Below, piece by piece: positions 1 to 43,558 of a DNA stretch of 64,000 nt. The DNA comes from Ilex aquifolium. Taxonomy: Eukaryota; Streptophyta; Magnoliopsida; Aquifoliales; Aquifoliaceae. The number at the start of each line of letters is the position of its first letter. The first letter of the stretch is position 1. The notes beneath the pieces were generated by a model that made no database searches, was not told the DNA's origin, and saw nothing but the letters and a program-made list of their open reading frames with translations. Location: positions 19,301,744 to 19,365,743 of the forward strand of contig OX637393.1 of the NCBI GenBank assembly GCA_951799425.1, read 5' to 3'. Position numbers and translations under genes: made by a program.

Positions 1-778
1 ATTTAGGAATGCCCTTATTATTTGAACTCATGTTTTACATTTTGGGTATTTATTTTGGTAGTTTAAATTAGAAATCCATGTCTTGTACTTTGAAAACATC
101 AAAATCTTAAATCATGTTGCAATTTCAGAAATGACTTTGGGCATGATCAACCAATTGTGGTTCATATGTGTGGTTCAATTTTTTCGTTGGTTAGTTGTTA
201 TAGATAGGGTGTTAAGATGTTTTGGAGTTGAGGGAAGTTGGAGTGGATGTGAATTTTTGAACAAAGGAATGGTTTTGTAGCAAAGGCAAAACCTTCCGGA
301 AGGTTTGTGTATAAACATTCCGGAAGGTTTTGTCCAGTGAGCAAAACCTTTCGAAAGGTTTTCCTTACTGACCAGAGGTGTCCCAGCAGTAAGCAAAACC
401 TTCCGGAAGGTTTTGCCTACTGGAATTTTTTGCCTCAGGTAGTAAGCAAAACCTTCTGGAAGGTTTTGATTGACCTTCCAGAAGGTTTTGCCCAGAAACC
501 TAAAAACGAGGGTTTTAAGTTCGTTTTTTATTTGAGAAACCCTTCACATTTCCCCCAAATTTCAAGCGTCCAAACTCTCTCCTCTCCCTCATAACCTCTT
601 CCAATCTTCAAAACATTTCACCAAAGCTCAAATTCCTCATTCCTTTGCTTGATTCAAGTTGATTTTGGAGTGTTTTAGCCAAAAATTGTAAGAGTTCTCT
701 ACAAAACCCTAGGTTTCCATTTCCCCCCAAATCATTCACCCTCTTTGATCTTTCCTAAACCTACTTGACTCCATTACA
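1..778 (+). promoter_or_regulatory. Non-coding region upstream of the env-like ORF of element X
   Basis: Bases 1-290 are AT-rich and hold nothing I recognise. Bases 292-484 carry a palindrome cluster (separate entry). Bases 485-778 are pyrimidine-rich and read like a 5' leader before the ATG at 779. In Athila-like elements the env-like ORF lies downstream of pol and may use a subgenomic transcript; this stretch sits where such an internal promoter would be. No clear TATA box seen. Confidence 0.45.
292..484. repeat. CCTTCCGGAAGG palindrome cluster upstream of X env-like ORF
   Basis: Six dyads: 292-303 (CCTTCCGGAAGG), about 317-326 (ATTCCGGAAG), 347-358 (CCTTTCGAAAGG, altered but still a perfect palindrome), 399-410 (CCTTCCGGAAGG), 452-463 (CCTTCTGGAAGG) and 473-484 (CCTTCCAGAAGG). 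The last two are single CpG-transition variants. They are embedded in AAAACC...GGTTTTG flanks. The spacer CTACTGGAAT lies at 417-426. The same palindrome type recurs in the X LTR. Confidence 0.9.
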
Positions 779-2074
779 ATGGCGAGGATGAATGGGATGT
801 CCATGGTTATGTTTGAGCCTGTGGAGAGTCTAAGGTGGATTATTTTGACACTTCTAGGTCTTGGGGCACTGTTATCCCTCATGGCCCGGACGAAGAGGAT
901 GGGCCCGGACTCTCCTGCACCTACGGGCTGTAGCTCCCGGAAGAGGAGTGGAGAGGGCCCTAGTGGCCAAGAGGAGAGGAGGACCAAGGGAAAACATGAC
1001 GCAAAGAGACAAAGGATTAAGGAAAAAGGCGTCACGTGCGAGGAATACGTGGATAGAGTTTCTCTTGGGCCAAACAATGAAGTTGTGAGAATTATTGAGG
1101 CGCGTGGGTTGCATGTGTGGTTTCAGGAGGTTAAGGGATATAATTTGGGGATGTGTCGTGAATTTTACCAAAAGTTGTCAGTATTTGGTGATGACGGGGG
1201 AAGGCTAAGGACCAATGTGAGGGGAAAAACATTCGAGGTGACCCTTGGCACGATCACCACTGTGATGGAGTATGAGAGGCCTCCCCCGACTACCCCAGTC
1301 AACCTACACAACGTGGACGGGGGTAGGACTCTTTTAGACTATGTGGCTCTCACTTATGAGGACCTAACCATGTTTAAGGGAACAACGTTGGCCGGGGGCC
1401 TCAAGCACTCATACGGGGTAATAAATAAAGTTCTTCATTATAATTTGATGCCCCGGGGTTCAGAAAAGAACCCGAACATTGAGAAGTTGGCCCTCCTCCA
1501 CACTTTCATGACTGGGGTGGCGATGGATGTGGCATATCTGATTTTTGAGGATATGCGGGAGTTTGAGAAGGCTGCAAAGCCGAAGGTATATCTCCCCTTT
1601 GGCAGCCTCATCACCAAACTGCGCGATCACGCCAAGGTGAAGCACTATGCTCACGATGCTATACTTCCCCCAGATACTAGAGCTATAGGAAAGTCAAGCA
1701 GCAGCAAGAGAGCTGCCAGGACTGGGGGAGAGAGGCCTAGAGCCTCGAGGCCAGAGCCGTCTGCAGCTGGTCCATCCTCATAAGCACCTCCACCACCTGC
1801 ACCTGCACCTGCTCCTGCCCGTACTATGTCCCAGTGTATGGACACACTGGGGTCCACCATGCACGGGCTGTCGATCATGGTGACACGACTTTTCCAGCAC
1901 ACATTCCCGGGTGAGCCTATCCCCGGAGGACCTCCGTCGTAGCCTGCTGGACCCTCGACCGCAGCTCCAGTGCCCTCCATGACTGTTAAGGTGGACGACG
2001 ACGACGACAAGGAGTTAGAGTCTGAGGAGTCTGAGACCGAGGAGGAGGATGCTTTCGATGAGGAGGATGATTGA
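779..2074 (+). pseudogene. Athila-type env-like ORF ('putative plant transposon protein') of element X, with two stop codons
   Basis: Starts at ATG 779 and is open to TAA at 1781-1783; the same frame continues to TAG at 1940-1942 and ends at TGA 2072-2074, about 431 codons. The part after the first stop is clearly coding in character: a Pro/Ala-rich linker, a segment with MSQCMDTLGSTMHGL, then an Asp/Glu-rich tail. The N-terminus has a hydrophobic stretch (about residues 20-36) followed by a basic region. The core (about 95-300) shares layout with the two ORFs at 26964 and 33094: a REFY block, a VRG block, and an LPFGSLIT block matching LPFATLVT. Position just before PPT and 3' LTR fits Athila env-like ORFs. 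Function is unknown in the family; I do not claim it is an envelope. Divergence from the B-family protein is strong. Confidence 0.75.
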
Positions 2075-2397
2075 GGACTTTTGTATTTTGTTTTAAATTT
2101 TGGTTGTACATAGCTAGGGTTACTTGTGTCGGCCAGTATAAACATCTTTAGGTTTTGGCCGTTTTGTTTTGGAACTAGAACCCATTGTAAAGAACTTTTG
2201 AAAAAGATCAATGAAATACCACATTTTTTTTTTGTTTAATCATTGCCCAAAGCCATTTATTTAATTGCAATATGATTTATGCATTTTAAGTGTTTGGATG
2301 TTTACTTGATTGTATGGATGGATTTTGTTTTAGTTTATAGCTTGTGATTTTTAAGTGAATGTTTTCTAGGGACTAGCAAAGCTCAAGTTGGGGGGTG
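2075..2397 (+). other. 3' non-coding region and polypurine tract of element X
   Basis: AT-rich 3' untranslated stretch between the env-like ORF and the LTR, ending in the PPT AAGTTGGGGGGTG (about 2385-2397) directly abutting the LTR. It matches, in reverse complement, 63682-64000 (shared GTGTCGGCC and GGCCGTTTT segments), showing X and A1' are relatives. Confidence 0.8.
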
Positions 2398-4031
2398 TGA
2401 TTAGCACAAAACATTGCATTTTTTGTATGTTAATATGCCCTTTTATACTTGCTTTTGTTGTGACTTTTGGGAGAAATGCGTTTTATCTTCTCTTTATCGG
2501 AGTTTTGTGTAAATGCAGGTAAAAAGATGTAAATGATTCAAGTTAAGCCCCCATTGAAGTGTTTGAAGTCAATGAAGATGAGGGGATAGCTTAAAGGAAG
2601 GCTTGGAGGTTGAAAAAACCAAGAAAAATGCAGTTTGGGTGAAAACATTCCGGAAGGTTTTGCTTACTGGTTTTCCATTTTAACTGTTCCTACACAAACC
2701 TTCCGGAAGGTTTGTGTCAACCTTTCGGAAGGTTTTGCCCAGATTGCCCAGACAGCTTACAACTCAAGCTCTACCATTTGGGGGTCCCACATACACTTCT
2801 CCCACTTGTCCCCTGACATCCCTTACACATCTACAGGCCTCCCATCACCCATGCTTGGACTTTGAAGGCTTGGGCATTTATGAGGAGGAGAGAGAAGAGG
2901 AAGAGCTAGGAGATGCAGGCTAGGCCTGTCCTACCCTGCCCAATGTATCCAATCAGCCCCCTTTTGGTGTAAGGCCTACCACACACCTATGGAGCTCTCT
3001 ATGGACAAAAATGTATTGATTCATTATGTATTTATTCAGTTTGTATTGCATTGGAGAGAGAGAAGCTCTAGGTAGAAGACACAATTAGAGAGATAAAACT
3101 TAGATTTTTACATTTCTTCCACCCTTTTCACTTGTAATCTTTCTCAAGACTCTTGTAAGCTTCATTTAATGTCTTTAATTTCATTTATTACATGTACTTT
3201 GCAAGTTTAGTTCTACATTTTGGGATTTCACCATTGTTACAAGAAGTTTTCTTCATTTCAAGTTTTAAAATGGGTATTGAATGTTTTTATTCCTAGTTTA
3301 AGTTTCCTTGCATTAAACTAAGTTCCAATCTTCATTTCTTTACAATGTCTCTTTATTACATTTATGTTCTTGCTTTAATTATGAGTAGCTAAACTTTAAG
3401 TGAGCTAATCCAAGGGAGAACTCCTCTTGGGTATGCCATTTCAACTCATTTTCATTCCTCCTCGTAGTGTACATTGATTCGGTTTGACTGGGTTGAGTGA
3501 GAACATGGTTGTGAGTCTTTGATATCCCGTAGACTTGTCACGGGGTATGCTTGGATGCTCACCTCCATCATAGTCCCTCGCTTCCCACGAATCAATCGAA
3601 CATCTAGACACCATTGGGGGAAGGTCTCGAGTTGAGTTGGCATTCCCATTGGAATGACCCATTTGGATTAGCCAACACTTATTCCCATTTCAATTTCATC
3701 AAAACACAATCACAAACCAAACTCAAGCATCAAAAGATTTTTACACTTTTCTTTTTGTTCACCAAAATCACCTTCAACACGATTCACCTCCTTCCCTAAG
3801 GAGATGACCTTGGAATACGATTTCCAAGTAAAACACGACACTCGAAAGTTTCCCTGCACTTGGGAAGCACTTTTGTTCACACACACACACACACACATAT
3901 TTCATTTCCATTATTTTGTTTACCCTATTTCTTGCATCATTCCAAGGTAGAGTGACACTCCCCTATCCGTATAAGCCATACACACATTGAGGGTGATGTG
4001 CGAAGATTAGGGTATACAACAGAAACCATCA
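2398..4031 (+). mobile_element. 3' LTR of Athila-like element X
   Basis: Begins TGATTAGCAC right after the PPT and ends AACCATCA, where Y gag resumes; 1634 bp. Related to the LTRs at 40743, 48832, 55357, 57788 and 61633 through a shared 3' half (the 'gggtcccac' segment, the 'gagtagcta...ccaagggaga' segment, 'acacattgagg'). A (CA)n run lies at 3878-3897. The body of X lies to the left, outside the window. The 5 bases after the LTR are AGCAG; the partner TSD is out of view. Confidence 0.85.
2647..2732. repeat. CCTTCCGGAAGG palindromes in X LTR
   Basis: Three copies: about 2647-2656, 2699-2710 (perfect) and 2721-2732 (CCTTTCGGAAGG, one transition). Same palindrome type as upstream of the X env-like ORF. 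Confidence 0.85.
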
Positions 4032-7895: not shown

Positions 7896-8228
7896 ACGTT
7901 CGAACACCAATCCACGTTCGAACGTTCTCTTGAATTATTGAAGACCAGACTGCTGAAGTGCTGATGCATGGCGTGTTGCAGCTAGGAAGGAAAAAACAGA
8001 GGCACTTGAGTGCCATGTTCGAACGCCAATCCACGTTCGAACGTTGTCCTGAATTATTGAGGACCAGGCTACTGAGTGCGAAGGGCAATGGTGCATGGCG
8101 TGTGGAAGTTGCTCTCACAGAAGAACACAAGCCACTTGAGTAGGAGGTGCAAACTCCATATGGCGTTCGAACGCCCATCAAGCAAAGACAGAAGACAACG
8201 TTCGAACGCCAGACAACATTTGAACGTT
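7896..8228. repeat. TTCGAA-type palindromes in B3 LTR
   Basis: Copies of AACGTTCGAAC / ACGTTCGAACGT at about 7896, 7915, 8009, 8033, 8164, 8200 and a decayed TTTGAACG at about 8218. They lie in U3, roughly 115-450 bp upstream of the TATA box at 8343. Confidence 0.88.
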
Positions 8229-8756: not shown

Positions 8757-11366
8757 TGTGACACCCCAAATTTCCGGGGGTCCTTTATTAACCGTTGACC
8801 ATCCGTCAACCCGCGGAAATACTCGTGATAGTCGTATAACCCGACACCACGTCACTCACATGCTTTTAATCAGATTTACCATCCACAAGGTCAATTATAC
8901 CTCCATTTATGTCATAGAAGTCAAAGAAAACAAAGCCCAAAAGCATGGCTAAGCATTTTGAAAATTTCAAGTTTTTGGAAAAACCTTCCGGAAGGTCGAC
9001 ATACACCTACCGGAAGGTCACTGAAGGAACTGTTACATGAAAAAGATCAACTTCAAGAACTTCCGGAAGGTCGACATCAGTAGCAAAAACCTTCCGGAAG
9101 GTCCATTCCAGTAGCCAAAACCTTCCGGAAGGTTCATTCCAGAAAACAAAACCTTCCGGAAGAACTCGGCAGTCAAAAAGAAACCCAAGGCAAAACCTTC
9201 CGGAAGGTCCACTCCAGTAGACAAGTCCTTCCGGTAGGTTTTACTCCAGTAGCTAAAATCTTCCGGAAGGTTCATTCCAGTGGGCAAAACCTTCCGGAAG
9301 GCATTAGCTGTGAGCAAGGCAAGCTGGGGTTTTTAGCAAAACCTTCCGGAAGGCCGACACACACCTTCCGGTAGGTTTTCAGACTGTGAGCATAAAAATG
9401 GATTTCTTCCCCCTCCAAACCATCCTTAAAGCTACCCCATACACTCCAAACTCATTCAATACATGTTTAATGAGATTTTCCATATAATACCCAACTCATA
9501 CAATCTCTATTACAATTCATTCCATAATATATATATACATCAAAATGGAATTTTGTTAAAGGTTTTACAAAACTTAAACTAAGGCCACAAGCCGGCCCCC
9601 TTCATGCTTGATGCTCTCCAAATGAGCCATCCGCCGGAGCAAAACCCACACCTGAAATGTTTTTCCCATAAAGGGTGAGCCACGCTCAATAGGGTATCTC
9701 CTAGAGAGGCTACTCCCCAACCTAAATGCATATGAAATGTCACATGCTATCAATCAACAATCCACAACAAGAATATATTCCATGTTGAAACATGTAATGT
9801 CATGCTATGAAATGAGGTGAGACTCACTCATGCACATCAACCGAGCCCTTCCCGGCTCCTCTACACATGCAAGTGCCAATGTGTACCAATCCGTCATTTA
9901 TGTTCCACATCAAATGACATTTCATTCTAGGGTCTTTGTAAGGGGTGGATGTTCATGGACTCACACCAAAGGTCACCCAACCTACACGGAATTCATGGAC
10001 TTCCACCAACGGTTCCGCGTACACCGACACACTTTATGGGCTCTTATACCAACGGAGTGCGTATCCAATCACCGGGTCTCTCACCCGAGGGATTTTCTAG
10101 CCCTTCTTGCTACCCCAACCCTATCAACATATAAACCATTCAACTCGTCTAGGTCATCGACCCATATTACCCGAGCTCACTCGTCATCCACCATGTGTGG
10201 TGAAGACAAATAACCATGCACACACACCTCCTAAAATGCGATGTTCCCGTGCATATGAAATGTGGTGCTCCATTGCAACACCAATACAATGTTCGATATG
10301 ATATGAGTGACATATGAACATTCTCAACACATTTCTCATATTCCATGGCAAAATCATATCAAAAGCATATAATTCCCATAATACAAATTCCAAGCATGTT
10401 ATCAACATACTAAAATTTCATGGCATATATATAAACACATAACACGCCCACAATTTCATATAACACATGAATTTACATTGGGTTCATTTCACATATCCAA
10501 TTCATAGAAATCACAATTAGTAACTTCTAAATATTCATCCAAGTTAGGATTTCCTTTACCCATTTCAATACCCAATTCACCCAATTTCACAACAATAGGC
10601 AAGAGACACATAGGCTATCATCCTACCCATTCCATAAAAACATTATAGGCTTGGAATAAACCTTAGTAGGAAGAAACCCTACCTCTTGAAGCGTGAGGAA
10701 CGACCAAGGGAAGTTCCAAGACCCGATTCAAGCCAAAAACCCTCACTTCTCGAAAATCCCGTACCTTAATCTTCGGTAAAACTTGCGCTTTTTGGTATAG
10801 CTGCGTAGCCCTCGATGAGTAGAGCGACTTTAATTCTTGGCTTGCGTGGATTCGAGGTCCGTAGCGCCGTAGATCGTAGAGAGAAGGTGAGTTTTTCTCT
10901 CTTTTCTCCCTCTTTCTCTCTATCGGCTGAAACCGGCTGAACAATGGGGAAAAATCTAATTTTTCCCCCTATTTATATTTTAGAATACTTGGCCCACAAT
11001 TCGCCACACGTCCTATTTAATTCCGGGTCCGTTTTAATCCCGAAACGATTAAATTTCGCTCCGGTTCAAGTTCAAATTATTTTTGTTTTAACTTGTGTTT
11101 AATATTTCCCCAAACCTGGAAACTTTATAAAAATTTCGTGTACAGGGTCACCCGGGGCCCGTTCGTCTCGTAAAACGCGAAAAATCCGACTATCTCGGAA
11201 TTCCACGAAATTTGACGTGGTAACTAGATTTCGCGAGACGAATCCAACGGTGAGGTCCGTTTCGTTATCCGAGTTCTAGAAAAATTCAGGTTTACAACCT
11301 GTACTGTAGTGGCAATTTACCGTTTTTCCCTTTTTCACAAAGGTTGAAATTTTCTCGGGTTTTACA
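8757..11366 (-). mobile_element. T1 3' LTR
   Basis: In plus orientation it begins TGTGACACCCC and ends GGGTTTTACA; read on the element strand it starts TGTAAAACCC and ends GGTGTCACA. 2610 bp, equal in length to its partner. A TATA box (TATAAATA, minus strand) lies at 10970-10977 about 390 bp inside the element-sense start, so most of the LTR, including the palindrome array 8984-9375, is downstream of the presumed start site. Confidence 0.95.
8984..9375. repeat. TTCCGGAA palindrome cassette in T1 3' LTR
   Basis: About a dozen CTTCCGGAAG dyads (including variants TACCGGAAGG and CTTCCGGTAGG) with spacers such as ATTCCAGTAG (9105-9114) and ACTCCAGTAG. Several are 31 bp apart. Repeated in the other LTR at 16632-17023. 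A closely similar cassette lies in A1' at 62981-63433. Confidence 0.93.
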
Positions 11367-11383
11367 TTCTCCCCCCCTTAAAA
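11367..11383 (-). other. T1 polypurine tract
   Basis: On the element strand TTTTAAGGGGGGGAGAA directly precedes the 3' LTR; this primes plus-strand DNA synthesis in LTR elements. Confidence 0.9.
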
Positions 11384-11460
11384 GAATTTCGTCCCCGAAA
11401 TTCACACACTCATGCACACACAATTACACGCATATGCAACAGTCATATAATACTAAATGA

Positions 11461-14400
11461 CTATAAGAATGTACCTCCATCCTCAAATAAGAAAGGATAG
11501 TTGGCACGTATGGTGTCCTCACGCTCCCATGTTGCCTCCTCCACTCCTCGGTGCTGCCACAACACCTTCACTAGCCTCACGGTCTTGCCTCGCAAAACCT
11601 GCTCTCGGCTATCCATGACACGCACTGGTCCCTCCTCGAAGGTCCCATCCGCATCAACTATGAGCTCGCCCCAATCCACAACATGCGTCGGATCTGGAGT
11701 ATACTTCCGGAGCATGGAGACATGGAATACGGCGTGAACACCCGATAAAGTTGGCGGTAACGCCAATCTGTAAGCCACAGTGCCAACTCTCTCAAGCACC
11801 TCAAAGGGCCCAATATACCTCGGCGACAGTTTTCCCCGCTTGCCGAATCTGATCACCCCTCTCTTAGGCATCACCTTTAAGAAGACGTGGTCTCCCACCT
11901 CAAATTCCAGGGGCCGCCGCCGCCTATCGGCGTAACTCTTCTGCCGGCTCTGAGCCGTGAGAAGACGCTTCCTTATCAGGTTCACCTTCTCCGAGGTGTC
12001 TCTAATCAAGTCTGGACCCGTAGAGGGTCTTTCCCCAACTTCAGCCCAACAAACCGGAGAACGACAAGGCCTCCCATAAAGCGCCTCATAGGGTGCCATC
12101 CGTATGCTCGCCTGATAACTGTTATTGTAGGCGAATTCCACTAAGGGCAAATGCTCTTCCCAGTTACCCTTGAGATCTAGGACGCATGCCCGTAGCATGT
12201 CCTCTAATGTCTGGATGGTCCTCTCCGACTGACCGTCCGTTTGGGGATGGTAGGCTGTGCTCATCCTCAACTGAGTCCCCATGGCTCGCTGGAAACTCTC
12301 CCAAAAGTGAGCCGTAAACCTGGGATCCCGATCCGATACTATAGACACGGGTACCCCATGCAACCGGACTATCTCCCTTATGTACAACCTGCAGAATTCC
12401 TCCAGAGTGAAGGTCATCCGCACCGCCAAAAAGTGTGCCGACTTCGTAAGCCGGTCCACTATCACCCACACCGCATCATGTCCCCGTGATGTCCGTGGCA
12501 AGTGGGTCACAAAGTCCATTGTGATGTGCTCCCACTTCCACTCAGCCACTTCCAAGGGCTGGAGCAACCCTGCTGGCCTCTGGTGCTCGGCTTTAATCTG
12601 CTGACATGTGAGGCATCTACTGACAAAGTCGCCAATTTGCCTCTTCATTCCGCTCCAGTAATACTGGCGACGAAGATCATGATACATCTTCGTGCCGCCT
12701 GGGTGCACCGCAAAACGAGAGCAATGGAACTCCCTGAGGATCTCCTCTCTCAGCTCCGCCGACTGGGGAACCACTACCCTTCCCCTAAACCGAAGACTGT
12801 CATCCGAGTGAATGGCCCAGCCCTCGTCACCAGTACCCGCCTGCACTCGGTCCCTGATGGATGATAACTCTGAGTCCTGTCTCTGTGACTCGATCACTCT
12901 GCTCAGTAGGGAAGGCGTAGCCACCAAACTCCCTAAAACACCCTGAGTCCGACCCCGATAATGCAGCCCAAATTGGCCCACGGCCTCAAGCATCCGCCAC
13001 TCCCGGGAAGCCACACTAGCTAAGACACCCCGTGACTTCCGACTAAGTGCGTCAGCCACCACATTTGCCTTACCGGGGTGGTAATGCAAAGTGAAGTCAT
13101 AGTCTTCTAGGTACTCCATCCACCTACGCTGCCTCATGTTGAGGTCCCGTTGAGTGAAGATGTATTTCAGACTTTTGTGGTCCGAAAACACTTCAAATCG
13201 TTCACCATACAAATAGTGGCGCCAAGCCTTTAAGGCAAAGACAACGGCCGCCAACTCCATGTCATGCGTGGGGTAATTCTGCTCGTGATTCTTCAACTGT
13301 CGAGAACCATAAGCCACCACTCTCCCGGACTGCATCAAGACACAACCCAGTCCGTCTTTAGAGGCATCGCAATATATCGTGTAGTTTTGTCCCCTTTCTG
13401 GAACAATCAAGATAGGAGCTGAAGTGAGTCTCCTCTTTAGTTCTTGGAATGCCTTCTCACACGAATCATTCCACTCGAACTTGACCTCCTTCCGGGTCAA
13501 TCTAGTCATAGGTGCGGCTAGTCGGGAGAAGTCCTCGATGAACCTCCGGTAATACCCTGCCAATCCCAAGAAACTACGTATCTCGAAGACTGACCTTGGC
13601 CTCTCCCAGCTCATAACTGCCTCGACTTTCTCCGGATCAACTGATACCCCCGAAGCCGACACCACGTGTCCCAAAAATTTCACCTCCGTAAGCCAAAATT
13701 CACACTTGCTGAACTTGGCGTACAACTGGTGGTCCCTCAAGGTCTGGAGAACAATCCTTAAGTGACCCTCATGCTCCTCCTCTGTCTTGGAGTAGATCAG
13801 GATGTCATCAACAAACACTACGACAAACTGATCTAAATAGGGCTGGAACACCCTATGCATGAGATCCATAAATGCCGCCGGGGCATTCGTCAACCCAAAT
13901 GGCATCACCGTGAACTCGAAATGCCCGTACCGCGTTCTGAACGCCGTCTTAGGGATATCTGACTCCCTAATCCTCAACTGATGGTAGCCCGTGCGGAGAT
14001 CTATTTTTGAATAGACCCGCGCTCCCCTCAGCTGATCAAACAGATCATCGATCCTCGGCAAAGGGTACCTATTCTTGATGGTGACCCGGTTCAACTGCCG
14101 ATAGTCTATACACAATCGAAGGGTCTTATCCTTCTTCTTGGCAAACAGCACCGGAGCGCCCCAAGGTGAGGTACTCGGTCTAATAAAGCCCTTGTCCAAT
14201 AATTCTTGTAATTGAACCTTGAGTTCTTGCAACTCAGCTGGCGCCATCCTATGTGGAGTCATAGAAATGGGTGAAGTACCCGGATGCAACTCAACGCTAA
14301 AGTCCACATCCCTATGGGGAGGTAATCCCGGTAACTCGTCCGAAAAAACGTCCTCATATTCACACACCACCCGAGGTAGACCCAATTCTTGTCTCGCCTC

Positions 14401-16047
14401 GTCCTCCAGGGTAAGGCTCGCAAGCCAACCCATCAATTGCCCATGCCATCGTGAATCATACACGACTTGAGGTAGAGCATCATGCTTTTCCCCCTGAAAC
14501 TTGAAACAAACACCGTCCGGTGTATAGGCGGTGACCCTCTTCTTGTCACAATCAATAACGACCCGATACGCCGCCAACCAGTCCATCCCAAGGATGACAT
14601 CGAATTCCGACATGTCCATAACCCTAAGGTCCACGGTGAGTAGAATCCCCGAGATCTCTAGCTCACAACCCCGACATATCTGATTCACACACACCCTAGC
14701 TCCTAGGGGTGAATTCACATATAACGGCTCCTCCAAGGTATCAACCTCTAAGCCCAAATCCCTCACACATGATGCAGAAATGAATGAATGTGATGCACCA
14801 GAGTCAAATAACACTTTAGTCCATAGGCGAGAAAGTAGAAATGTACCCTGAATGACTGACTGGTCCACTGGCTCAGCCTGAGGTGTAATGGCGTAGACAC
14901 GCCCCTGGGTCCCCGAAGTCCCGGCTTGCATGCCCTGTCCTCGGCCTCGACCCATGCCTTGGCCCATCTGGCCCGACTGCGGAGTCCCCGCTCGAAAGGT
15001 GGTAGGGGCCTGAGTAGCGCCCTGGAACTGATACTGGTTTCCCTGGCCCGTGGTGGGGTAGGGAGGAATAAGGCGTGTCTGCGACTGTCCCACTGATGAC
15101 TGGGACTGAGGTGTCCCATAGCTCTGGGATCCTTGCCTCTGCGGACAATCCCGCTTCATATGCCCCGGTTGGTGGCAATGGAAACATGTCTTCTGGCCCG
15201 CGTGGTAGGTAGTCCTGAAGTTTCTCCCGCCTTGGGAAAGCTGACCTTGGCCTTGGCCTTGATAGCCGCGGCCCTGTCCTTGAGGAGCAGAGGTCCTCTG
15301 TTTCTTCCCCGAACTAGAAGAAGAGGATTGACCCTCCTTCTTCTTATCCTTAGCACCCGCCTCACGGATGCTTCGAGCATCGTCCACCTCCCTCTCAATG
15401 GCCATAGCTGTCTCGACCATAGAGTCCAAGTCTTGCAGGCGGAGGCCCACAATCTTTCCCCGGATGGATAGCTTCAACCCATCCTCAAACCTTCTTACCT
15501 TGGCCATATCCGTGGCCACGTAATCATCAGCAAATCGGGCTAATTCAGTGAACTTAGCCACATACTCCATCACTGTCATTGACCCTTGCTTCAAATCTAG
15601 AAACTCGCGGGCCTTTGCATGTCGAACGGCCGTTGGGAAATATTTACCCATGAAGAGCTCCTTGAACTCTCCCCATGTCATGGCCTCTAAGTTCTTCGAG
15701 GCCGTCACCCAATCCCACCACAATTGGGCTTCTCCTTCTAGCTGGAATGCAGCTAGCCTTATCTTAGTAGCGTCTGAGGTGACCTCCATCGCCCCTAAGA
15801 TCTTGTTGACTTGCCGGAACCAATGGTCGGCCACCATCGGGTCCGCCCCTCCCATGAAGACTGGAGGTTTGTGTGCTTTAAACTGTTGGAGGTTACTCGC
15901 GCCTCCATGTCCGGCATTTGCACTAGCTTGTGCAACAGTAGCCGCCATTAGGCCCATGGTTTCCGTAAACGCTCGTTGATCGAAGACCGGTGGTGGTTGG
16001 TTATTGTTCCGCCCACCGCCTCGACGTCCTCTTCTTCCACTTGCCAT
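11461..16047 (-). CDS. gag-pol: T1 gag-pol polyprotein, intact chromovirus type
   Basis: 1528 residues, uninterrupted. Gag about 50-235 (QLWWDW and FPTAVR motifs); CCHC zinc knuckle C288-x2-C291-x4-H296-x4-C301; aspartic protease D415 in FDSGAS; RT with D683 and the catalytic FVDD pair D747/D748; RNase H D894, E931, D956, D999; integrase zinc domain H1108/H1115/C1145/C1148; catalytic D1178-x60-D1239-x35-E1275; GPF module near 1413; chromodomain about 1475-1521 (VLWQHRG, EATWE). Chromodomains of this class are thought to target integration to heterochromatin. Length, domain order and all catalytic residues are as expected for an autonomous Tekay/Del element. The start is the first ATG, with a basic RGRRGGGR N-terminus, 341 bp from the PBS. 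This is the only full-length open gag-pol in the window. Confidence 0.97.
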
Positions 16048-16388
16048 CTACACACAAGTCAAATGGCAATGGCACAACAACTTAGTATCCCTAGATAGGG
16101 ATCAAAGTTAAAACGCTCAAATCTTTCTCATTGTCTCACTAGTAGAGCGTATGCCTCCAATAGTGGACCCTTTCGCTTTGAACCTTCCCGTTCATTTGCT
16201 TTCCCACTCCCAAGGTTAAGTTCTCTAACCCTAGTGTGTCCATTTCCATACACATTTTACCATGCATATAATACACATACCACATATCACATAACATGTA
16301 GCAATTTAAGCACATAACATGTAATGTACAATGAATGCAATGGTCTAAACCCATGCCCCATCAAGCCCTAGGTAAATCGCATACCTAT
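16048..16388 (-). other. T1 untranslated leader
   Basis: Sequence between PBS and gag-pol ATG. No ORF of note; presumably holds packaging signals, none of which I can identify. Confidence 0.7.
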
Positions 16389-16400
16389 GCTCTGATACCA
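16389..16400 (-). other. T1 primer-binding site, initiator Met-tRNA
   Basis: Element strand TGGTATCAGAGC, the standard complement of the plant initiator methionine tRNA 3' end, 4 bases from the 5' LTR. Confidence 0.93.
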
Positions 16401-16404
16401 AAGC

Positions 16405-19014
16405 TGTGACACCCCAAATTTCCGGGGGTCCTTTATTAACCGTTGACCATCCGTCAACCCGCGGAAATACTCGTGATAGTTGTATAACCCGACACCACGT
16501 CACTCACATGCTTTTAATCAGATTTACCATCCACAAGGTCAATTATACCTCCATTTATGTCATAGAAGTCAAAGAAAACAAAGCCCAAAAGCATGGCTAA
16601 GCATTTTGAAAATTTCAAGTTTTTGGAAAAACCTTCCGGAAGGTCGACATACACCTACCGGAAGGTCACTGAAGGAACTGTTACATGAAAAAGATCAACT
16701 TCAAGAACTTCCGGAAGGTCGACATCAGTAGCAAAAACCTTCCGGAAGGTCCATTCCAGTAGCCAAAACCTTCCGGAAGGTTCATTCCAGAAAACAAAAC
16801 CTTCCGGAAGAACTCGGCAGTCAAAAAGAAACCCAAGGCAAAACCTTCCGGAAGGTCCACTCCAGTAGACAAGTCCTTCCGGTAGGTTTTACTCCAGTAG
16901 CTAAAATCTTCCGGAAGGTTCATTCCAGTGGGCAAAACCTTCCGGAAGGCATTAGCTGTGAGCAAGGCAAGCTGGGGTTTTTAGCAAAACCTTCCGGAAG
17001 GCCGACACACACCTTCCGGTAGGTTTTCAGACTGTGAGCATAAAAATGGATTTCTTCCCCCTCCAAACCATCCTTAAAGCTACCCCATACACTCCAAACT
17101 CATTCAATACATGTTTAATGAGATTTTCCATATAATACCCAACTCATACAATCTCTATTACAATTCATTCCATAATATATATATACATCAAAATGGAATT
17201 TTGTTAAAGGTTTTACAAAACTTAAACTAAGGCCACAAGCCGGCCCCCTTCATGCTTGATGCTCTCCAAATGAGTCATCCGCCGGAGCAAAACCCACACC
17301 TGAAATATTTTTCCCATAAAGGGTGAGCCACGCTCAATAGGGTATCTCCTAGAGAGGCTACTCCCCAACCTAAATGCATATGAAATGTCACATGCTATCA
17401 ATCAACAATCCACAACAAGAATATATTCCATGTTGAAACATGTAATGTCATGCTATGAAATGAGGTGAGACTCACTCATGCACATCAACCGAGCCCTTCC
17501 CGGCTCCTCTACACATGCAAGTGCCAATGTGTACCAATCCGTCATTTATGTTCCACATCAAATGACATTTCATTCTAGGGTCTTTGTAAGGGGTGGATGT
17601 TCATGGACTCACACCAAAGGTCACCCAACCTACACGGAATTCATGGACTTCCACCAACGGTTCCGCGTACACCGACACACTTTATGGACTCTTATACCAA
17701 CGGAGTGCGTATCCAATCACCGGGTCTCTCACCCGAGGGATTTTCTAGCCCTTCTTGCTACCCCAACCCTATCAACATATAAACCATTCAACTCGTCTAG
17801 GTCATCGACCCATATTACCCGAGCTCACTCGTCATCCACCATGTGTGGTGAAGACAAATAACCATGCACACACACCTCCTAAAATGCGATGTTCCCGTGC
17901 ATATGAAATGTGGTGCTCCATTGCAACACCAATACAATGTTCGATATGATATGAGTGACATATGAACATTCTCAACACATTTCTCATATTCCATGGCAAA
18001 ATCATATCAAAAGCATATAATTCCCATAATACAAATTCCAAGAATGTTATCAACATACTAAAATTTCATGGCATATATATAAACACATAACACGCCCACA
18101 ATTTCATATAACACATGAATTTACATTGGGTTCATTTCACATATCCAATTCATAGAAATCACAATTAGTAACTTCTAAATATTCATCCAAGTTAGGATTT
18201 CCTTTACCCATTTCAATACCCAATTCACCCAATTTCACAACAATAGGCAAGAGACACATAGGCTATCATCCTACCCATTCCATAAAAACATTATAGGCTT
18301 GGAATAAACCTTAGTAGGAAGAAACCCTACCTCTTGAAGCGTGAGGAACGACCAAGGGAAGTTCCAAGACCCGATTCAAGCCAAAAACCCTCACTTCTCG
18401 AAAATCCCGTACCTTAATCTTCGGTAAAACTTGCGCTTTTTGGTATAGCTGCGTAGCCCTCGATGAGTAGAGCGACTTTAATTCTTGGCTTGCGTGGATT
18501 CGAGGTCCGTAGCGCCGTAGATCGTAGAGAGAAGGTGAGTTTTTCTCTCTTTTCTCCCTCTTTCTCTCTATCGGCTGAAACCGGCTGAACAATGGGGAAA
18601 AATCTAATTTTTCCCCCTATTTATATTTTAGAATACTTGGCCCACAATTCGCCACACGTCCTATTTAATTCCGGGTCCGTTTTAATCCCGAAACGATTAA
18701 ATTTCGCTCCGGTTCAAGTTCAAATTATTTTTGTTTTAACTTGTGTTTAATATTTCCCCAAACCTGGAAACTTTATAAAAATTTCGTGTACAGGGTCACC
18801 CGGGGCCCGTTCGTCTCGTAAAACGCGAAAAATCCGACTATCTCGGAATTCCACGAAATTTGACGTGGTAACTAGATTTCGCGAGACGAATCCAACGGTG
18901 AGGTCCGTTTCGTCATCCGAGTTCTAGAAAAATTCAGGTTTACAACCTGTACTGTAGTGGCAATTTACCGTTTTCCCCTTTTTCACAAAGGTTGAAATTT
19001 TCTCGGGTTTTACA
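16405..19014 (-). mobile_element. T1 5' LTR
   Basis: 2610 bp, near identical to 8757-11366. TATA box TATAAATA (minus strand) at 18618-18625, followed on the element strand by a purine-rich GAGAGAAAGAGGGAG leader. Palindrome cassette at 16632-17023. Confidence 0.95.
16632..17023. repeat. TTCCGGAA palindrome cassette in T1 5' LTR
   Basis: Copy of the cassette at 8984-9375; by eye the two show no differences, including the imperfect repeat units. Confidence 0.93.
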
Positions 19015-23301: not shown

Positions 23302-25094
23302 TGTCTTGATCCGAAATGTGTACACCCAATTGTAGGCAGTCAAGCTGTAGTAATAATCCGGTTTGAGTCCGGAGTCTAATCCACAGGGAACTATTGTTGG
23401 TGTTTCAAAGTAAGCAGTGGTGGAGACCAAATGATTGTAAAGTTTGAGATTTGAAGTTGTGTGGTGTATGAGATTTTCCTGGGCAGAATATAGGATTCCT
23501 TCCAAGACGATTTTCTAGACAAAATATAAGCCGAAATGTAAAAAGGTCACTTTTTAGTTCGAGGATCTGGACATGGAGTTAAGCATCAGGTTTATTATAC
23601 TTGTACTTGATAACTCAATTAACCCCTATGTCAACAACAAGTTAATCGGAAGATAAATATGGATTGTGAGAATTAAGAGCATGATTCCGATGTCTTTCTA
23701 GAAGTTTACAAGAATTTTCTGTGCTGAGACTTAACCCGTCTACAAACAAGCAAGTGTTTCTACAAGGCATCCAACCATGACATTAATATTCCATTTCCAT
23801 TCTTTAATTGAAGCACAATAATAGTGAAGATTGAAGGGTTGTCATGAAGATCTAGCCGGGGTACTTGCCTTGAACTGATGAGTCTTTCTATGCAAGAATT
23901 ATCTATGTTATAGAAATTACTCATGGTTATACAAAGTACCTTAGCTTTGCTAGATGCAATCAATCATTCAATAAGAAAGGGGAATATAAAGCATTAAGCA
24001 TAATCGAAAATGCACAAATATAACTTCCGAATAATTTATACATGTCCATCACCTCTTACTAAATAGTGAATGAGAAACTACTCACTCTTCGTGACTTTGG
24101 TAAAGCTAGAAAAGTGAGTGATGCTCATTCCTCCAAGTAGAGGAGTTACAAGGTAAGGCACAATAAACAAGGAGCCGATCTTCGACAAAGAATGAGTGAA
24201 TCACTTTCCACCCTTCACGGCTTTGGCGAAGCTCTAGAAAAGTGGAAGAGTTTCACTCATCTCAGAGAAGAAGCTCAAGCAATGGAAGTGAATGAAACAA
24301 GTATTGAAAGTAGAAGAAAGCTAGTCACTTTTGGAGGGTTTCCTCCTCAACCAAAATTAATCTATCTCCCTCTATGCATGCAATTGAAAACATAAGTCTA
24401 AGACTAACAAAGTAAGAAAATTTTGGTCTAGTGCCAACCCAACTCTCTTGAAGCTCCCACAATGGGAGTATTTATAGGCAAAGAGGAGGGGGGGTAATGT
24501 GGAGGAATAGTACAAGGCCTTGAAAGTCCAAGTAAAAGTCCCAATGTCCGGAGAGAAGATCAGCCACTCTGCAGCCTGTCTGGAGACAACGTTCGAATGT
24601 TGTCTGACATTCGAACGTTGTTTCTATCTTTGCTTGATGGGTGTTCGAACGCCATGTGGGGTCTGATCTTCCCACTCAAGTGGTCTGTGGTCTTCTGGAG
24701 ATCTAATTCCATACGCTTTGAACCACTGCCTTTGCACTCATTAGCCTGGTCCTTAATAGTGGAGGAGAACGTTCGAACGTGAGTGGGCGTTCGAACGAGG
24801 TACTTAAGTACTTCAGTGCTTTTCTTCTCATCTGCAACACGCCATGTCTCAGTAGTATGGTCTTCAAATAATTCAAGGGAACGTTCGAACGTGAGTTAGC
24901 GTTCGAACGTTCTTGCTTTGTTCCAAGCTTTTCCAATTTTGTCCCCCAATATGCTGGTGTTACATTCAAGTTTGATATTTGTTGCCCTTGTGCCCTTGTT
25001 CACTTTAGGACCTGAAATGTCATCATTTAAACTCCATCAAAGTATAATTAGTCTTAAAAAGGCTTAGTGATATGCTAATTTTAACTACTAATCA
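23302..25094 (-). mobile_element. Element B2 3' LTR
   Basis: Element strand begins TGATTAGTAGTTAAAA (at 25094) and ends GGATCAAGACA (at 23302); 1793 bp. Preceding 5 bases in B3 gag are GGGAA; the partner TSD is out of view. TATA (minus) 24469-24476. PPT GGTTGGGGGTG abuts at 25095-25105. Confidence 0.92.
24588..24911. repeat. TTCGAA-type palindromes in B2 LTR
   Basis: About eight ACGTTCGAACGT-type dyads, including adjacent pairs near 24771/24789 and 24882/24900, 18 bp apart. Some CpG-transition variants (CGTTCGAATG). Confidence 0.88.
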
Positions 25095-27936: not shown

Positions 27937-29315
27937 TGTAACACCCTGCATTTTCTTTTATACATGTATATAGATATATAGTAAATAAAGGTTGAAATTT
28001 GGTTTTTTTTTTTAATAAAAATATGAAATTTTAGGTCCTAGAACTTGCATTAAATAGGTTTGGTGTAGAAATATGTGGTGGAGAGGTTTGGGATGGATTT
28101 TGTTGGTTTAGGATTGGATTGGACGGCACTGGAAGTCGGAGCAAAAATCTGTCAGTCAAACCGTACCGGTACGATACCGTACCGGTACCGCGTACCGGTA
28201 CGATTCCATACCGGTACCGTGTACCGGTACGACTTACTCCAGTAGCTTAACCGTACCGGTACCGCGTACCGGTACGATTTATCTGACACTCGCCGAACAG
28301 TTAAAAAGTCGGGATTTTTGGGTTTAAAACACCACCTCAAGCCCTCATTTGCCCCATTCTTCATTCCACTCTCACCCTAAACACTTTAGAACCCTAGGAG
28401 AGAAAGAAAGGAAGAGAGAAACTCAAGATCAAAGGGGAAAAACACAAGATTTAAGGGTGATTCAAGATCCAAGCCCTAAATTTCAAGAACACCAAGGTAG
28501 GGGTTTTCTTCCATTCTTGTTCATTGATGTTAGGGTTATTATACATATATGTTTTGACTCCTAATCATATGTATTTGCTATGAGTTCATTGTTTCTTGGT
28601 TCTCTTGCAATTGTTAACATGTTTTACACAAAGTTAGGGTTGTATACCCATGAAATCCCTATTTTGTTTGAAAAACCCTAGTTTTCAAGAGTGATGGGTT
28701 TTCCTCTTGAACTCTTCCTTTATTCTTGATTTCAAAATCATAGTGTTTTGTGTTGAGTAATAAAATGATATTGTTGTGATCTCTTGTATTTTTCTTGGTT
28801 GGTTATTGAAAATGTCACATGCTTAATTTGGGGATTTTGAGATATGCTTGTAAAATGAGAAATTGTGGATTTTGTAGTTATTTGGAATTGTTGGTGAATT
28901 GAGAATATTTTGGTTTCCTCATTGGTATGGTTGTTGTGATGGACTTGGATTTCCTTCGAGAGATGCCGTAGAGTGTTAGATGTTAGTCTATCACAGTGGG
29001 GGTGAGATGGTTTCCTAACACTTGTGGTGGGTTGTCATTTGGTAATGCGACCACTATCGTTCACTGGAGTTCGAACAAGGGAGGGTATACTTTTCCTAGG
29101 AAGGGACTCATCACTGCCATTGGGATGGTAGACACCCTTTCCTAAAGTGTTTGTGATTGTGATTGTGATTGGTGGACTAGGTATAATTGTTGGGTAGATT
29201 CATGAGAAGCAATCAACATATATAGTACGGGGATGAAGCAATATTAATGGGATGAGGGGTTGGACCGCCTTGGCCGGTGCATTGGTATGGAACAATGCAT
29301 CGGAAGGCGCCCTTC
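27937..29315 (+). mobile_element. C 5' LTR, first part
   Basis: Runs from TGTAACACCC to the TSD CCTTC (29311-29315) of B1. The 3' LTR copy shows the uninterrupted reading at about 57637. Relative to this copy the 3' LTR lacks about 40 bp near 28394-28440 and about 57 bp near 29009-29065. Confidence 0.92.
28161..28276. repeat. GTACCGGTAC palindrome cluster in C 5' LTR
   Basis: Seven ACCGGT-centred dyads (CGTACCGGTACG / GGTACCGGTACC); centre spacings 16, 13, 16, 13, 32 and 13 bp. The long gap holds ACTCCAGTAG (28236-28245), a spacer also found in TTCCGGAA cassettes. Located in U3. Confidence 0.92.
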
Positions 29316-31265
29316 TGACAGCTATCTATCCGATGTACACCCAAGTGCAGGTGGTCAAGCTGTAGTAATAATCCGGTTTGAGTCCGAAGTCGAATCCACA
29401 GGGAACTTTTGTTGATATTTCTAAGGTAAGCAGTGGTAGAGACCTTTTGGTGGTAACATTTTTTGATTTGGATTTGCTGTGAGATGTGGGTTTTGCTGGA
29501 CAGAATATAAGATTCTTTCCAGGAGATTTTCTTAACAAATTAGGAAATGAATGTTAATAAAAAAAAGAGTCACTCTTTAGTGCAAGGATCTGGACATGTA
29601 GTTAGTTATCCGGTTTGTCATAATTGTGCTTGATAACTCAATTAACTCCCGTATCAACAGTAAGTTAATCGGAAGATAAAGATGGATTGTGAGAATTAAG
29701 AACATGATTCCGATCTCTTTCTAGAAGTTTACAAGCATTGCCTGTGCCGAGACTTAACTCGTCTACAAACAATCAAGTGTTTCTACAAGACATCCAATCA
29801 TGATATTAATAGTCCATTCTTTTTAGTGAAGTACAATAAGGGGGGAGATTGAAGGGTAGTCATGAGGATCTAGCCGGGGTACTTGCCTTGAACTGATGAG
29901 TGTTTCTATGCAGGAGTCATCCATGTCATAGAAAGGGCTCACAATTATACAAAGTACCTTAGCTTTGCTAGATGCAATCAATCATCCGATAATAGGGGAA
30001 AATAAACGTTAAGCATAAAAGAACATTGCACAAATATAATTCCCGGATAACTTATACATGCCCTTCTCCTCTCACTAAAGAGTGAATGAGAAACTACTCA
30101 CTCTTCATGGCTTGGGTAAAGCTAGAAAAGTGAGTGATGCTCATCCCTCCAAGTGGAGAACTTTAAAAGATAGAGTAACACAAATACGGAGCAAATCTTC
30201 CCCAAAGAATGGGTGAATCACGTTCCACGCTTCACAGCTTTGATCAAGCTCTAGAAAAGTGGAAGAGTTTCACTCTTCTAAGAAAGAAGGAAGCTCAAGC
30301 AATGGAAGTGAAATGCATGAACAATTAAAGTAGAAGAAAGCTAGTCACATTTGGAGGGTGGCTTCCTCAACCAAAGATTGGAGGGTTGCTTCCTCAACCA
30401 AGATGGGAGCTATCTCTCTTCTATGCATGAGAATTGAAAGCATAGACATAAACATAAACATAAAACTACTGCTATAACAAGCAAGAGATGTTGGACTAAA
30501 GCCAAACTAATCTCTAAAATAAATACTTCATAAGGAAAATGAACTAACTACAATGAAAGTGGGAGTCTAAGCCTCCATCACTATGCTACTTCCTACAATG
30601 CTTGGCTCCTCAAGCTCTCCAACAAGGGGAGTATTTATAGGCAAGAGGAGGAGGTAGGGGGGGGTGAAAGAATAGTGTTTGCCGCCCAAGTCCAAGTGAA
30701 TAGTCAATAACTCTGCAGCCAGTCTGTGGATGACGTTCGAACTTAAGTTGGCGTTCGAACGTTCTTTCTGTTTTTGCACTGAGGTCGTTCGAACGTTGCT
30801 TCTGTTTTGGCACTGAGGGCGTTCAAACGCCAGATCTGCTCTGACCCCTTTCACTCGAGTGATCTATAGGTCCCCTGTGAAGTGCAGTACCAACTCTCTG
30901 CAGTGGTCTGGTCTTCAATCCACTCAAGTGCACGTTCGAACGTGAGTTGGCGTTCGAACGTGACACTCAAGTACTTTAGAGTTCCAGTCTTCTTTCCTAA
31001 CTGCCACACGCCATCTCTTCAGCATCTGAGTCTGCTACAGTGTCTTGTTTGACGTTCGAACGTGAGTTGCCATTCGAACGTGGTGACAGTGTTCCAAGCT
31101 TCTCCAATTTTGGGTTATAATGTACTGGCACTGCATCCAAGTGTGGTACTTGTTGTTTTTGGGTCCTTGTTCAGTTTAGGGCCTGAAATGACATCACTTA
31201 AACTCCATTAAAGTAAAATTAGTCTTAAAATGTCATAATAATATGTCAAGTTTAAGTACTAATCA
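29316..31265 (-). mobile_element. B1 3' LTR
   Basis: 1950 bp. Element strand starts TGATTAGTAC (31265) and ends GGATAGATAGCTGTCA (29316). TATA (minus) 30632-30639. Confidence 0.94.
30733..31081. repeat. TTCGAA-type palindromes in B1 3' LTR
   Basis: Pairs of CGTTCGAACG dyads, typically 18 bp centre to centre (for example those beginning about 30933 and 31053), plus single copies. Several carry transitions relative to the 5' LTR copy (CGTTCAAACG, CATTCGAACG). Confidence 0.9.
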
Positions 31266-33093
31266 CACTCCCCAACCTAAATATTGCTAGTCTCTAGTAA
31301 TACGAAAAAGAAAATTCTACTCCTAATGCCATTTTCGTAGGTCATCCGGTTGCATTTAGCTTATGCAACAAGCCGTTGAACCACTAGGTTTACCCTAGCG
31401 GACGAGTGTTGTCTCGTGAGGGTTTCCAGAGAAGCTACCCACAAACTTCAGTCGAACAGATGTGTATAGTAGAATGCTGTCTAAAGTAAATTAGCATCAT
31501 GGTCGTTGAGACACCAGATTTTCAACTTTTGGTTTATGTCTCACACATCCTTATTTCACAGGTATTCAATCTATGCAAAAATTATCATTTGATACATTGG
31601 TATTTGAAATTCTCAATGCAATAGGAATGATCATTCAAGCAATAAAAATTGTTATGTAACAAATACTCCCTTTTATTCACCTTCCATGGATAGTTTCGAT
31701 TTCACAAACCTCACGTAGTAAACTCTCAACAAAGGTTCACTCTGATTATAGTGACTTGTTTCTCACAGATCATGTGATCAGAAGATGGCCAGTCGAAAAA
31801 TCACATGCACTATTTAAGAAAGGAGTGAAATTTTAAATAAGCAACTATTTATGTTTGGCATAATCTCATGAAAGAATATCAACGCAATTAAAAGGAATGC
31901 TATTTACCATATCCCCATTGTGATTAACAACACATGCATGCAACATACTTGAGATCAATTAGGGCTTTGCATGGGTTGTAGCGTGGCCAGAGGTCAGTGG
32001 CTAACGAAACGACATCAGGGATTTTCAAAAGCTATCTGTTATTTGCGTATCATAGCACACCTTTTTCTAGCTTCTTGATATTTTGCCGAAAGATGACATT
32101 TCTTTCTTTCATTTTTCTCATTTTTTTCACTTTCTTGGCAAGTTCTTGCCTTTTCGCTTCTGTTTTGTTTCAATTGTTCCAATCAACTCTTCTTGGATGA
32201 TAATCTCGAATGCTCCTTTTTCTGTATCATCTTACAAAGAGGATGTAAGAAAATTAGATAACCAAGGTATGTCAAGGATGTTTTCCTGTGGTTTGGTAAT
32301 CATGTAGGTTTATCAAAGAAAACTTTAAACATTGATAGCTCAAACGTGGCTAACGAGGGAAATTTTTTTTTTCAAAGAAAGGTCTAAGGCTCAATATTAT
32401 ATCAAAGATGGCCTAAGATCATTTCTCAAGCATGTGCACATGTATGTGTCGTATGTGATGGTTCCATGTGGGATATGTCAATAGATCACTTTTAAGTGCG
32501 TTAATCAAAGCAAGGTTAATGAGATCATTCAAAAATTGAGATTTGAAAAGAATTTGCTTGAGTAAACATTGATTGTCTCTCGAAAGCATCGTTAGGTTCG
32601 AAACTCACCCTGGTGTTCTTTGTTATCTCCACTGTGTATGTCAGGCTTTCCAGGGAGTATCGGTTATATACCAATTCCATTTGCGAGTCAGATCCTCCTG
32701 TACTTTTAAAATAACAAATATCGATGTACAAATGACAATTTAAGTATAGAGAGAACATCCATGTTTTTCAAGAAATGTGGTTTGAAGTCTTAGTTAATAA
32801 ATTGAGGTGTCAAACCGATCATGTGTATATTTACTCTAGCAAGCATTCTTATATCCACATTTGTTACTTCTCCTTTTAATTTCTATGCTAAATCTACAAA
32901 TGTATAAAACCAAATAAAAGTGATAAATGGAACCATTCATTTCAAAATATCATCCTTTAACATCAACGGTTCATTCATTCATAACCACACAAAAACTTAC
33001 AACTATAAAAGAAGAAATTCATACAAAGAAGTACTTTAAACAAACATAAAACAAAAACATAGGAACAAGAACAGAAATAGAAGTTCCTCTCTC
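31266..33093 (-). other. B1 PPT and long 3' non-coding region
   Basis: PPT GGTTGGGGAGTG abuts the LTR. About 1.83 kb without a credible ORF, aligning with 25095-26963. Twin hairpin at 31381-31417. Confidence 0.8.
31381..31417 (-). other. Twin hairpin in B-family 3' region (B1 copy)
   Basis: Same two hairpins as 25216-25252, base for base in both stems and loops. Candidate structured RNA or replication/packaging element; role unknown. Confidence 0.55.
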
Positions 33094-34203: not shown

Positions 34204-34204
34204 G

Positions 34205-34706
34205 GCGTTCGAACGTTCTTTTGATATGGGAGGGTCCTGAAAAGTTCTGGCACTTAGTGTTCTAGGTCTGGGATTGATGATGTTTGATGTGGGGAGGGGT
34301 TAGGGAAGGTCGAATTTGGATGTTTTTGGGGAATGAAGGTAAGTTGAGGTCTGTGGAGGGGCAGGGAATTCTAGGGTTTTGAAAAAATTGGGGATTTTGG
34401 CTGAAAAACGACGAACCAGGCTTTTATAGCCTGAGTTGTGACGTTCGAACGTTGGTGACGTTCGAACGTGGGTAGAAGAAATTTAAAAAGATCGTTCGAA
34501 CGTGGTATGGCGTTCGAACGTGATGAGCTCCCAGTACTTTTGTGTTTCTGCAGAGGCCAAAGTACTGTAAGCACTCTTCGTTCGAACGGTCTATTGGCGT
34601 TCGAACGGACTGAGCTCCCAGTACTTCCAAGTTTCTGCAGAAGCTCATCAGAGGCTGAGTACTGTAGGCAGTCAACGTTCGAACGTTACCTGGCGTTCGA
34701 ACGTTG
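34205..34706. repeat. TTCGAA palindromes upstream of B1 env-like ORF
   Basis: Nine dyads: a single one at 34205-34216 and four pairs at about 34441/34458, 34494/34511, 34580/34599 and 34675/34693. The two members of each pair are 17-19 bp apart, the same geometry as in the B-family LTRs. CpG transitions are rare here. Confidence 0.9.
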
Positions 34707-42634: not shown

Positions 42635-42639
42635 CTTCT

Positions 42640-43552: not shown

Positions 43553-43558
43553 AAAACT

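Follow-up and report, generated by a model that had tools for sequence, protein, structure and literature searches.

Palindromic repeated motifs have been described in the Sireviruses (Ty1/copia), where they occupy the upper half of the LTR, 200-400 bp past its junction with the PPT, and recur upstream of the gene in the ENV position, the linker copies being absent where that gene is lacking (PMC2829016). The motif is given as specific to Sireviruses and absent from classic retrotransposons, and the sections of that paper drawn on here report neither inter-lineage transfer nor block exchange (PMC2829016). A further precedent is offered by the VANC anti-silencing proteins of VANDAL DNA transposons, for which both binding and demethylation have been shown; according to the parts of that account used here, short element-specific motifs are clustered in non-coding regions and are thought to change together with the element-encoded protein, so protein-motif pairs of this kind exist in plant transposons (PMC5735166). 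Segment exchange among Athila families (PMC2410132) and among centromeric chromoviruses (PMC4079200) has been described as making new lineages. Extra ORFs, sometimes with a promoter of their own, are found after pol (PMC7264820, PMC11963269, PMC11728184), and one Transposase_32 (PF20167) ORF, from a sunflower Athila, has been predicted to be nuclear (PMC11728184); in the portions of these three papers drawn on here, no cognate DNA motif is given for the accessory ORFs. The literature searched, as represented by the excerpts consulted, held no report of palindrome arrays like those described below in Athila elements or chromoviruses, and what it returned for the literal CCTTCCGGAAGG and for LBD with TCCGGA was unrelated, as judged by title. 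To our knowledge, no function has been established for the accessory ORFs that plant retrotransposons carry between pol and the 3' LTR.

The locus described here, a stretch of 64,000 nucleotides of Ilex aquifolium (contig OX637393.1; 'the window'), resembles the Sireviruses in that palindromic, repeated, element-specific motifs lie in U3, starting at a similar LTR position in 8 of 11 LTRs, and in that further copies are found upstream of a gene between pol and the 3' LTR in eight elements, though not at all loci of this gene. The hosts differ: they are Ty3/gypsy Athila-like elements carrying the PF20167 ORF, for which 'Tp32' is used below as a short name, and chromoviruses. With the same two-place layout, the Sirevirus motifs are the closest known system. 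Like VANDAL elements, the elements studied here have short motifs of their own clustered in non-coding regions which may change together with an encoded protein; the VANDAL motif YAGTATTAY, however, has one orientation, is non-palindromic and belongs to DNA transposons for which binding was demonstrated (PMC5735166); binding by Tp32 is putative. The exchanges described previously, as far as the cited excerpts go, took place within one lineage (PMC2410132, PMC4079200), whilst the U3 cassette considered here passed between lineages whose RTs are 37% identical. Matching dyads at two places, together with block exchange involving Tp32, suggest a concrete function for such an accessory ORF. In addition, one retrotransposon may be exploiting the control system of another; capture by chromoviruses, if true, would be a clear case of one lineage exploiting another's regulatory system.

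The elements discussed are of Ty3/gypsy type, with RT-RH-IN order in one ORF and Ty3/gypsy-type Pfam matches. Three palindromic 8-mers, TTCCGGAA, TACCGGTA and GTTCGAAC, occur 40, 25 and 41 times in the window, against maxima of 5, 2 and 2 in 30 dinucleotide shuffles. Most of these dyads fall into clusters, which occupy the U3 of LTRs or precede a Tp32 ORF, and arrays of the three types are present in many window elements besides the two carrying the cassette (Table 1). The first array site lies at LTR position 185-259 in 8 of the 11 LTRs tabulated, the exceptions being A3 (464), A4 (462) and T1 (2016). Around the X1 arrays, TATAAAAG is found about 12 bp beyond the internal array, on the Tp32 side, and TATAAATA about 93 bp past the last dyad of the U3 array. 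A TATAAT lies 84 bp past the T1 cassette, with weaker matches for T2, A1 and A2, and none was found after the A1 internal, A1' or A5 arrays. When the composite motif was looked for in public collections, one viral and 12 prokaryote contigs gave one match each, which was judged to be chance. T2 (27938-57786) is a nest of insertions: its 5' LTR holds X1 (itself with the A2 solo LTR), its RT is interrupted by the A3 solo LTR, its internal part contains an X-type LTR, and A4 and the A5 element sit in its 3' LTR. The LTRs A2, A3 and A4 (55357-57167) are related, being 74-77% alike, and at one aligned place the dyad type is TTCCGGAA in A2 and TACCGGTA in A3 and A4.

Table 1. Elements, ORFs and palindrome arrays of the window (positions from its first letter).
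Feature	Position	Strand	Details
A1 array upstream of A1 Tp32	292..485	+	CCTTCCGGAAGG-type dyads
A1 Tp32 ORF	779..1783	+	PF20167, 334 aa, E = 2.1e-19
A1 LTR, following PPT	2396..4020	+	TTCCGGAA-type sites at 2646-2732
X3 LTR array	7897..8207	+	6 GTTCGAAC; X3 LTR interrupted by T1
T1 LTR retrotransposon, chromovirus-type	8757..19014	-	LTRs 8757-11366 and 16405-19014; TSD AGTTT
T1 3' LTR cassette, read as captured	8976..9455	-	12 CCTTCCGGAAGG-type dyads and ~80 bp of apparent Athila U3
T1 5' LTR cassette	16624..17103	-	letters identical to 3' LTR cassette
X2 LTR array	24642..24908	-	5 GTTCGAAC
T2 5' LTR array	28163..28274	+	7 TACCGGTA, first at LTR position 227; one CCAGTAG module
X1 Athila-like element	29316..45507	-	TSD CCTTC; PBS TGGCGCCGTTGCC; gag, PR, RT-RH-IN, Tp32
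X1 3' LTR U3 array	30734..31061	-	6 GTTCGAAC
X1 Tp32 ORF	33094..34203	-	PF20167, 369 aa, E = 6.2e-25
X1 internal array	34440..34705	-	8 GTTCGAAC, mostly close pairs
A2 solo LTR, nested in X1	40743..42634	+	TSD CTTCT; 4 TTCCGGAA-type sites, in pairs at 40999-41032 and 41256-41289
X1 5' LTR U3 array	44976..45321	-	7 GTTCGAAC, first at LTR position 187
A3 solo LTR, inside T2 RT	48832..50683	+	3 TACCGGTA where aligned A2 has TTCCGGAA
Xs, X-type LTR within T2	53739..54081	-	6 GTTCGAAC
T2 3' LTR array	54750..54861	+	6 TACCGGTA
A5 5' LTR, Athila-like	57787..59642	+	PBS at 59646; 8 TACCGGTA at 58036-58159
A1' 3' LTR	61633..63683	-	remainder of A1' outside the window, in L044 and L045
A1' U3 cassette, homologous to that of T1	62975..63513	-	14 dyads

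An earlier note on this DNA had placed one and the same palindrome cassette in both LTRs of T1 and in A1', and the dyads are indeed located there: allowing at most one mismatch to CCTTCCGGAAGG, 12 are found in each T1 LTR (8984-9375; 16632-17023) and 14 in A1' (62981-63433). The T1 and A1' cassettes align as one contiguous homologous segment whose gaps are a 62-bp indel, corresponding to two 31-bp units, and a few small ones. The match that the note had described as running unit by unit thus holds as contiguous homology but not strictly by unit, since A1' has two extra 31-bp units, and the common tail after the last dyad, put at 50 bp, measures about 80 bp. Masking the dyads in both elements leaves a local score of 321, where 500 shuffles reached 34 at most. 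The resemblance thus extends into the spacers, which rules out chance as well as a likeness confined to the dyads, the latter being an outcome that the note had named as refuting its view. Outside the segment the flanks are at noise, with scores of 20 and 15 that were reached by 108 of 300 and 272 of 300 shuffles. Within it, 141 of 144 dyad columns are identical between T1 and A1', compared with 277 of 332 other columns (Fisher p = 1.1e-6). The T1 LTRs are 99.73% identical, all 7 differences in 2610 positions lying outside the cassette. A1' continues beyond the window with Tp32 (64030-65427 in window numbering), then pol, gag, the PBS and a 5' LTR identical to the 3' LTR across 2049 bp. Half-switched dyads (TACC/GGAA or TTCC/GGTA), resembling intermediates between two types, are seen in TTCCGGAA arrays at 9006, 9227, 9364 and 63003. 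It could be argued that the arrays are functionless by-products of tandem-repeat growth and LTR recombination, T1 having captured its copy by accident and been amplified for other reasons; the 31-bp units do grow and shrink, as the 62-bp indel illustrates, and recombination among Athila elements is well known (PMC2410132, in the excerpt used). We consider this very improbable, for dyads are kept where spacers change, and the same two places are occupied time and again by five dyad sequences unrelated to one another.

T1 and A1' belong to different lineages. Their RTs are 36.6% identical, well below the 82.5% between T1 and the other chromovirus T2 and the 83.5% (115 aa) between A1' and the Athila-like X1; on these pairwise comparisons of window elements, by which the lineage relation was judged, a close relationship of T1 and A1' is excluded. 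The PBS is TGGTATCAGAGC in T1 and TGGCGCCGTTGCC in A1', and the latter we take to be of the tRNA-Asp type that is linked to Athila. A1', A5 and X1 are Athila-like in having the TGGCGCCGTTGCC PBS and a PF20167 ORF between pol and the 3' LTR, and the RT of A1' stands apart from the chromoviruses (37% to T1). T1 has a single gag-pol ORF of 1528 aa, in which the SH3_Tf2-1 match is strong (E = 3.7e-29) and the Chromo match weak (E = 0.0035, below the curated cut-off); the Pfam domain search gave no Chromo match in T2, and no Tp32 ORF was found in T1 by tblastn. Lineage names are to be read as based on the domains, PBS and RT identities measured here. The earlier note's view that the hosts differ in lineage and in tRNA primer is borne out, and so is its preference for transfer: with contiguous homology, flanks at noise and distant RTs, transfer between LTRs would explain the cassette far better than vertical descent.

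The homology of A1' to the LTR of A1 starts before the common segment, covers the tail past the last dyad and runs about 118 bp past the other end of the segment, where A2 also matches A1'. None of this A1/A2-type LTR homology is present in the T1 flanks, which indicates transfer from Athila to T1, and the cassette is on these alignments a piece of Athila LTR placed within the LTR of T1. In a search of this single genome (800 Mb, 103 contigs), all 40 of the cassette copies scored, out of 1566 first-look candidates, were at least 99% identical. Thirty loci were cut out, including the window's own two, and in every one a T1-type LTR lies on both sides of the cassette; 28 of 29 comparable copies retain all 12 dyads, and the differences summed across the 29 copies number 2 in the 96 dyad columns and 45 in the 380 other columns. 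At five of the 30 loci (L024, L025, L041, L042 and L043) identity to T1 is 98-99% over the cassette and the LTR end, whereas in the LTR directly upstream, in the sense of transcription, it drops to 69-76% over the next 345 bp and to 42-69% further upstream, which argues that the block moved again among T1-type families. The cassette may thus be present in at least two further T1-type LTR backgrounds, the break falling at the edge of the cassette or close to it, although the pattern may have other causes. Among these five copies, two of them are in pairs about 7.84 kb apart. At G000:C18:8311441-8350150 (L014-L016, L019-L021), six T1 cassette copies are about 7.65 kb apart, which is the spacing of T1's own two LTRs, apparently in a tandem T1 array sharing LTRs.

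The second chromovirus of the window, T2, carries arrays of TACCGGTA at the usual U3 position, with a dyad spacing like that of A5 (13, 16, 13, then 32 or 31, 13). A short motif, CCAGTAG, lies about midway between dyads in TTCCGGAA and TACCGGTA arrays alike: in T2 the distances are 9 bp from the preceding dyad and 8 bp to the following one, and in A1', T1 and A5 they are 8 or 9 bp and 8 bp. The 4461 bases of array contain 17 copies of it, which in part are repeats of each other, and the remaining 59539 bases contain 4. When the spacers alone were compared with T2, A1' scored above 200 of 200 shuffles and A5 above 193 of 200. T2 is a likely second chromovirus capture of an Athila-type array, less well supported than T1.

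In the Athila-like elements, family-specific palindrome arrays are found both in the LTR U3 and upstream of Tp32. The dyad type agrees between the two places in all eight elements that have exact arrays at both, five types being represented: GTTCGAAC in X1, TTCCGGAA in A1 and A1', TACCGGTA in A5 and in two A5 relatives (Tp32 93% and 71% identical), GTCCGGAC in L077 (7 and 4 copies) and GCCTAGGC in L086 (merely 2 and 2 copies). The two A5 relatives had been chosen for their Tp32 identity with their flanks still unread; an LTR start was found in X1, A1, A1', A5 and L077, and not in L086 or the A5 relatives. Were the elements independent, which they are in part only, a complete match would be expected by chance about 3 times in 10,000. 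Tp32 identity is 65% (A1-A1'), 69% (X1-X2) and 71% and 93% (A5 relatives) within a type, compared with 48-49% between TTCCGGAA and TACCGGTA elements and 24-29% to X. X2 provides no test of the type match because the beginning of its Tp32 ORF carries the T2 insertion. Among ten further Tp32 loci, chosen by ORF-length group, exact palindromes of a single type flank Tp32 in L077 and L086 only: in L083 the array is confined to one side, in L078 and L081 the signal is weak, L085 has a shared but non-palindromic CAGCGCCC motif, and no palindromic array was found in L079, L080, L082 and L084. As an LTR start was recognised in 3 of the ten (L077, L079 and L084), U3 may lie outside some of these loci. 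Among the 30 best PF20167 loci of 6661 first-look candidates in the genome, on the upstream side, 18 have GCCTAGGC or CAGCGCTG at least twice and 12 show no repeat of either. A further Tp32 subfamily (L049, L076, L051 and L064) has GCGCCTAGGCGC upstream at intervals of about 62 bp, or CAGCGCTG-type repeats. The sole match to Tp32 in a protein-database search was P0001 (69% identity over 42% of the query), which has PF12455 as well and stems from an ENA contig of 1231 bases.

A comparison of siblings shows that dyad type and Tp32 can change together. A1' is inserted into A5, to which it is 93-96% identical in nucleotides from the PBS through pol (IN 97% in amino acids) and 96-100% over the last 950 bp of the LTR. 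The match extends about 1.8 kb past the pol stop and breaks off short of the internal arrays, by about 150 bp in A1' and 285 bp in A5; past this break the internal array is of the switched type, Tp32 is 48% identical, and U3 is different and of the switched type as well. Because internal array, Tp32 and U3 array are contiguous in the genomic RNA, a pair of template switches could replace the regulator and both arrays together.

On the whole we think it probable that the cassette is a set of promoter-proximal sites for a dimeric DNA-binding protein, for which Tp32 is the likeliest candidate, and that these sites were captured by T1. Tp32 suggests itself because it and the dyad type move together, and the same family-specific dyad in U3 and upstream of Tp32 makes it the likeliest binder. 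Tp32 would then be the element's own activator or anti-silencer and also an autoregulator, putatively binding the dyads, such that a dimeric, family-specific protein would control both promoters of the element. In this view an A1'-like Athila element donated a U3 array, some 480 bp long, to an ancestor of T1 through template switching or other recombination; the block would then have passed between T1-type families, while the T1 family multiplied and carried it along. T1 would presumably respond in trans to Athila Tp32 without encoding Tp32 itself; we infer this response, the binding and the sign of the regulation. Counted against the proposed reading are the Tp32 loci described above that lack matching arrays, the start of the T1 array outside position 185-260, the lack of any match of Tp32 to a DNA-binding family in Pfam, an AlphaFold model that is unusable at pLDDT 35, and the phasing of the dyads at about 10.5 bp, where R is about 0.9 for T1 and A1' and 0.24-0.53 for the other types. 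A general argument from helical phasing was dropped, as it holds for the TTCCGGAA arrays of T1 and A1' only and these are also built of repeated 31-bp units. A wider reading, which we hold tentatively, is that Tp32 is a re-targeting regulator whose specificity and both arrays are exchanged as a module, and whose operators unrelated chromoviruses have repeatedly captured, thereby letting the regulator of another element switch them on; this might be a retroelement counterpart of repressor/activator specificity classes, with cheaters.

The dyads might instead be sites for host transcription factors such as heat-shock factors or LBD proteins, the host-responsive promoters being shared or borrowed. 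The motif of heat-shock factors is TTCnnGAA and that of LBD proteins TCCGGA. TTCCGGAA contains TTCnnGAA, three-unit TTCnnGAAnnTTC sites occur twice in one T1 cassette and four times in A1', and heat-responsive elements are known in COPIA LTRs (PMC5059998, in the part drawn on). TTCnnGAA is nevertheless present in the TTCCGGAA arrays and absent from the T2, A5 and both X1 arrays despite their comparable positions. Five dyad types at the same two places, and a type that switches along with Tp32 from A5 to its sibling A1', also speak against host factors, which we consider an unlikely explanation.

Constraint on the dyads was also seen in the X family. X1 has 5 of 7 dyads intact against X2 and 6 of 7 against X3, compared with 3-4% of spacer windows and 15-24% of LTR windows, and 5 of 6 against the closer Xs, compared with 29% of windows, figures that may be inflated by the dyad-anchored alignment. 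Between the two LTRs of X1, presumed identical at insertion, 3 of 64 dyad positions and 27 of the 1885 other positions differ, so the dyads do not by themselves decay more slowly. A role in small-RNA targeting has been proposed for Sirevirus LTR palindromes, and the palindromes here could likewise act as RNA hairpins that either draw in or escape small-RNA silencing, or as recombinogenic DNA structures, with no dedicated binder; the T1 cassette does fold far better as RNA than its shuffles (z = -10.95, equalled by 0 of 100). Such an explanation seems to us distinctly improbable, since structure requires pairing but not the preservation of a single exact 8-mer along an array and across families, whereas the X-family dyads retain their exact letters. 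Nor does it predict that both promoters share a dyad type or that the type switches with Tp32.
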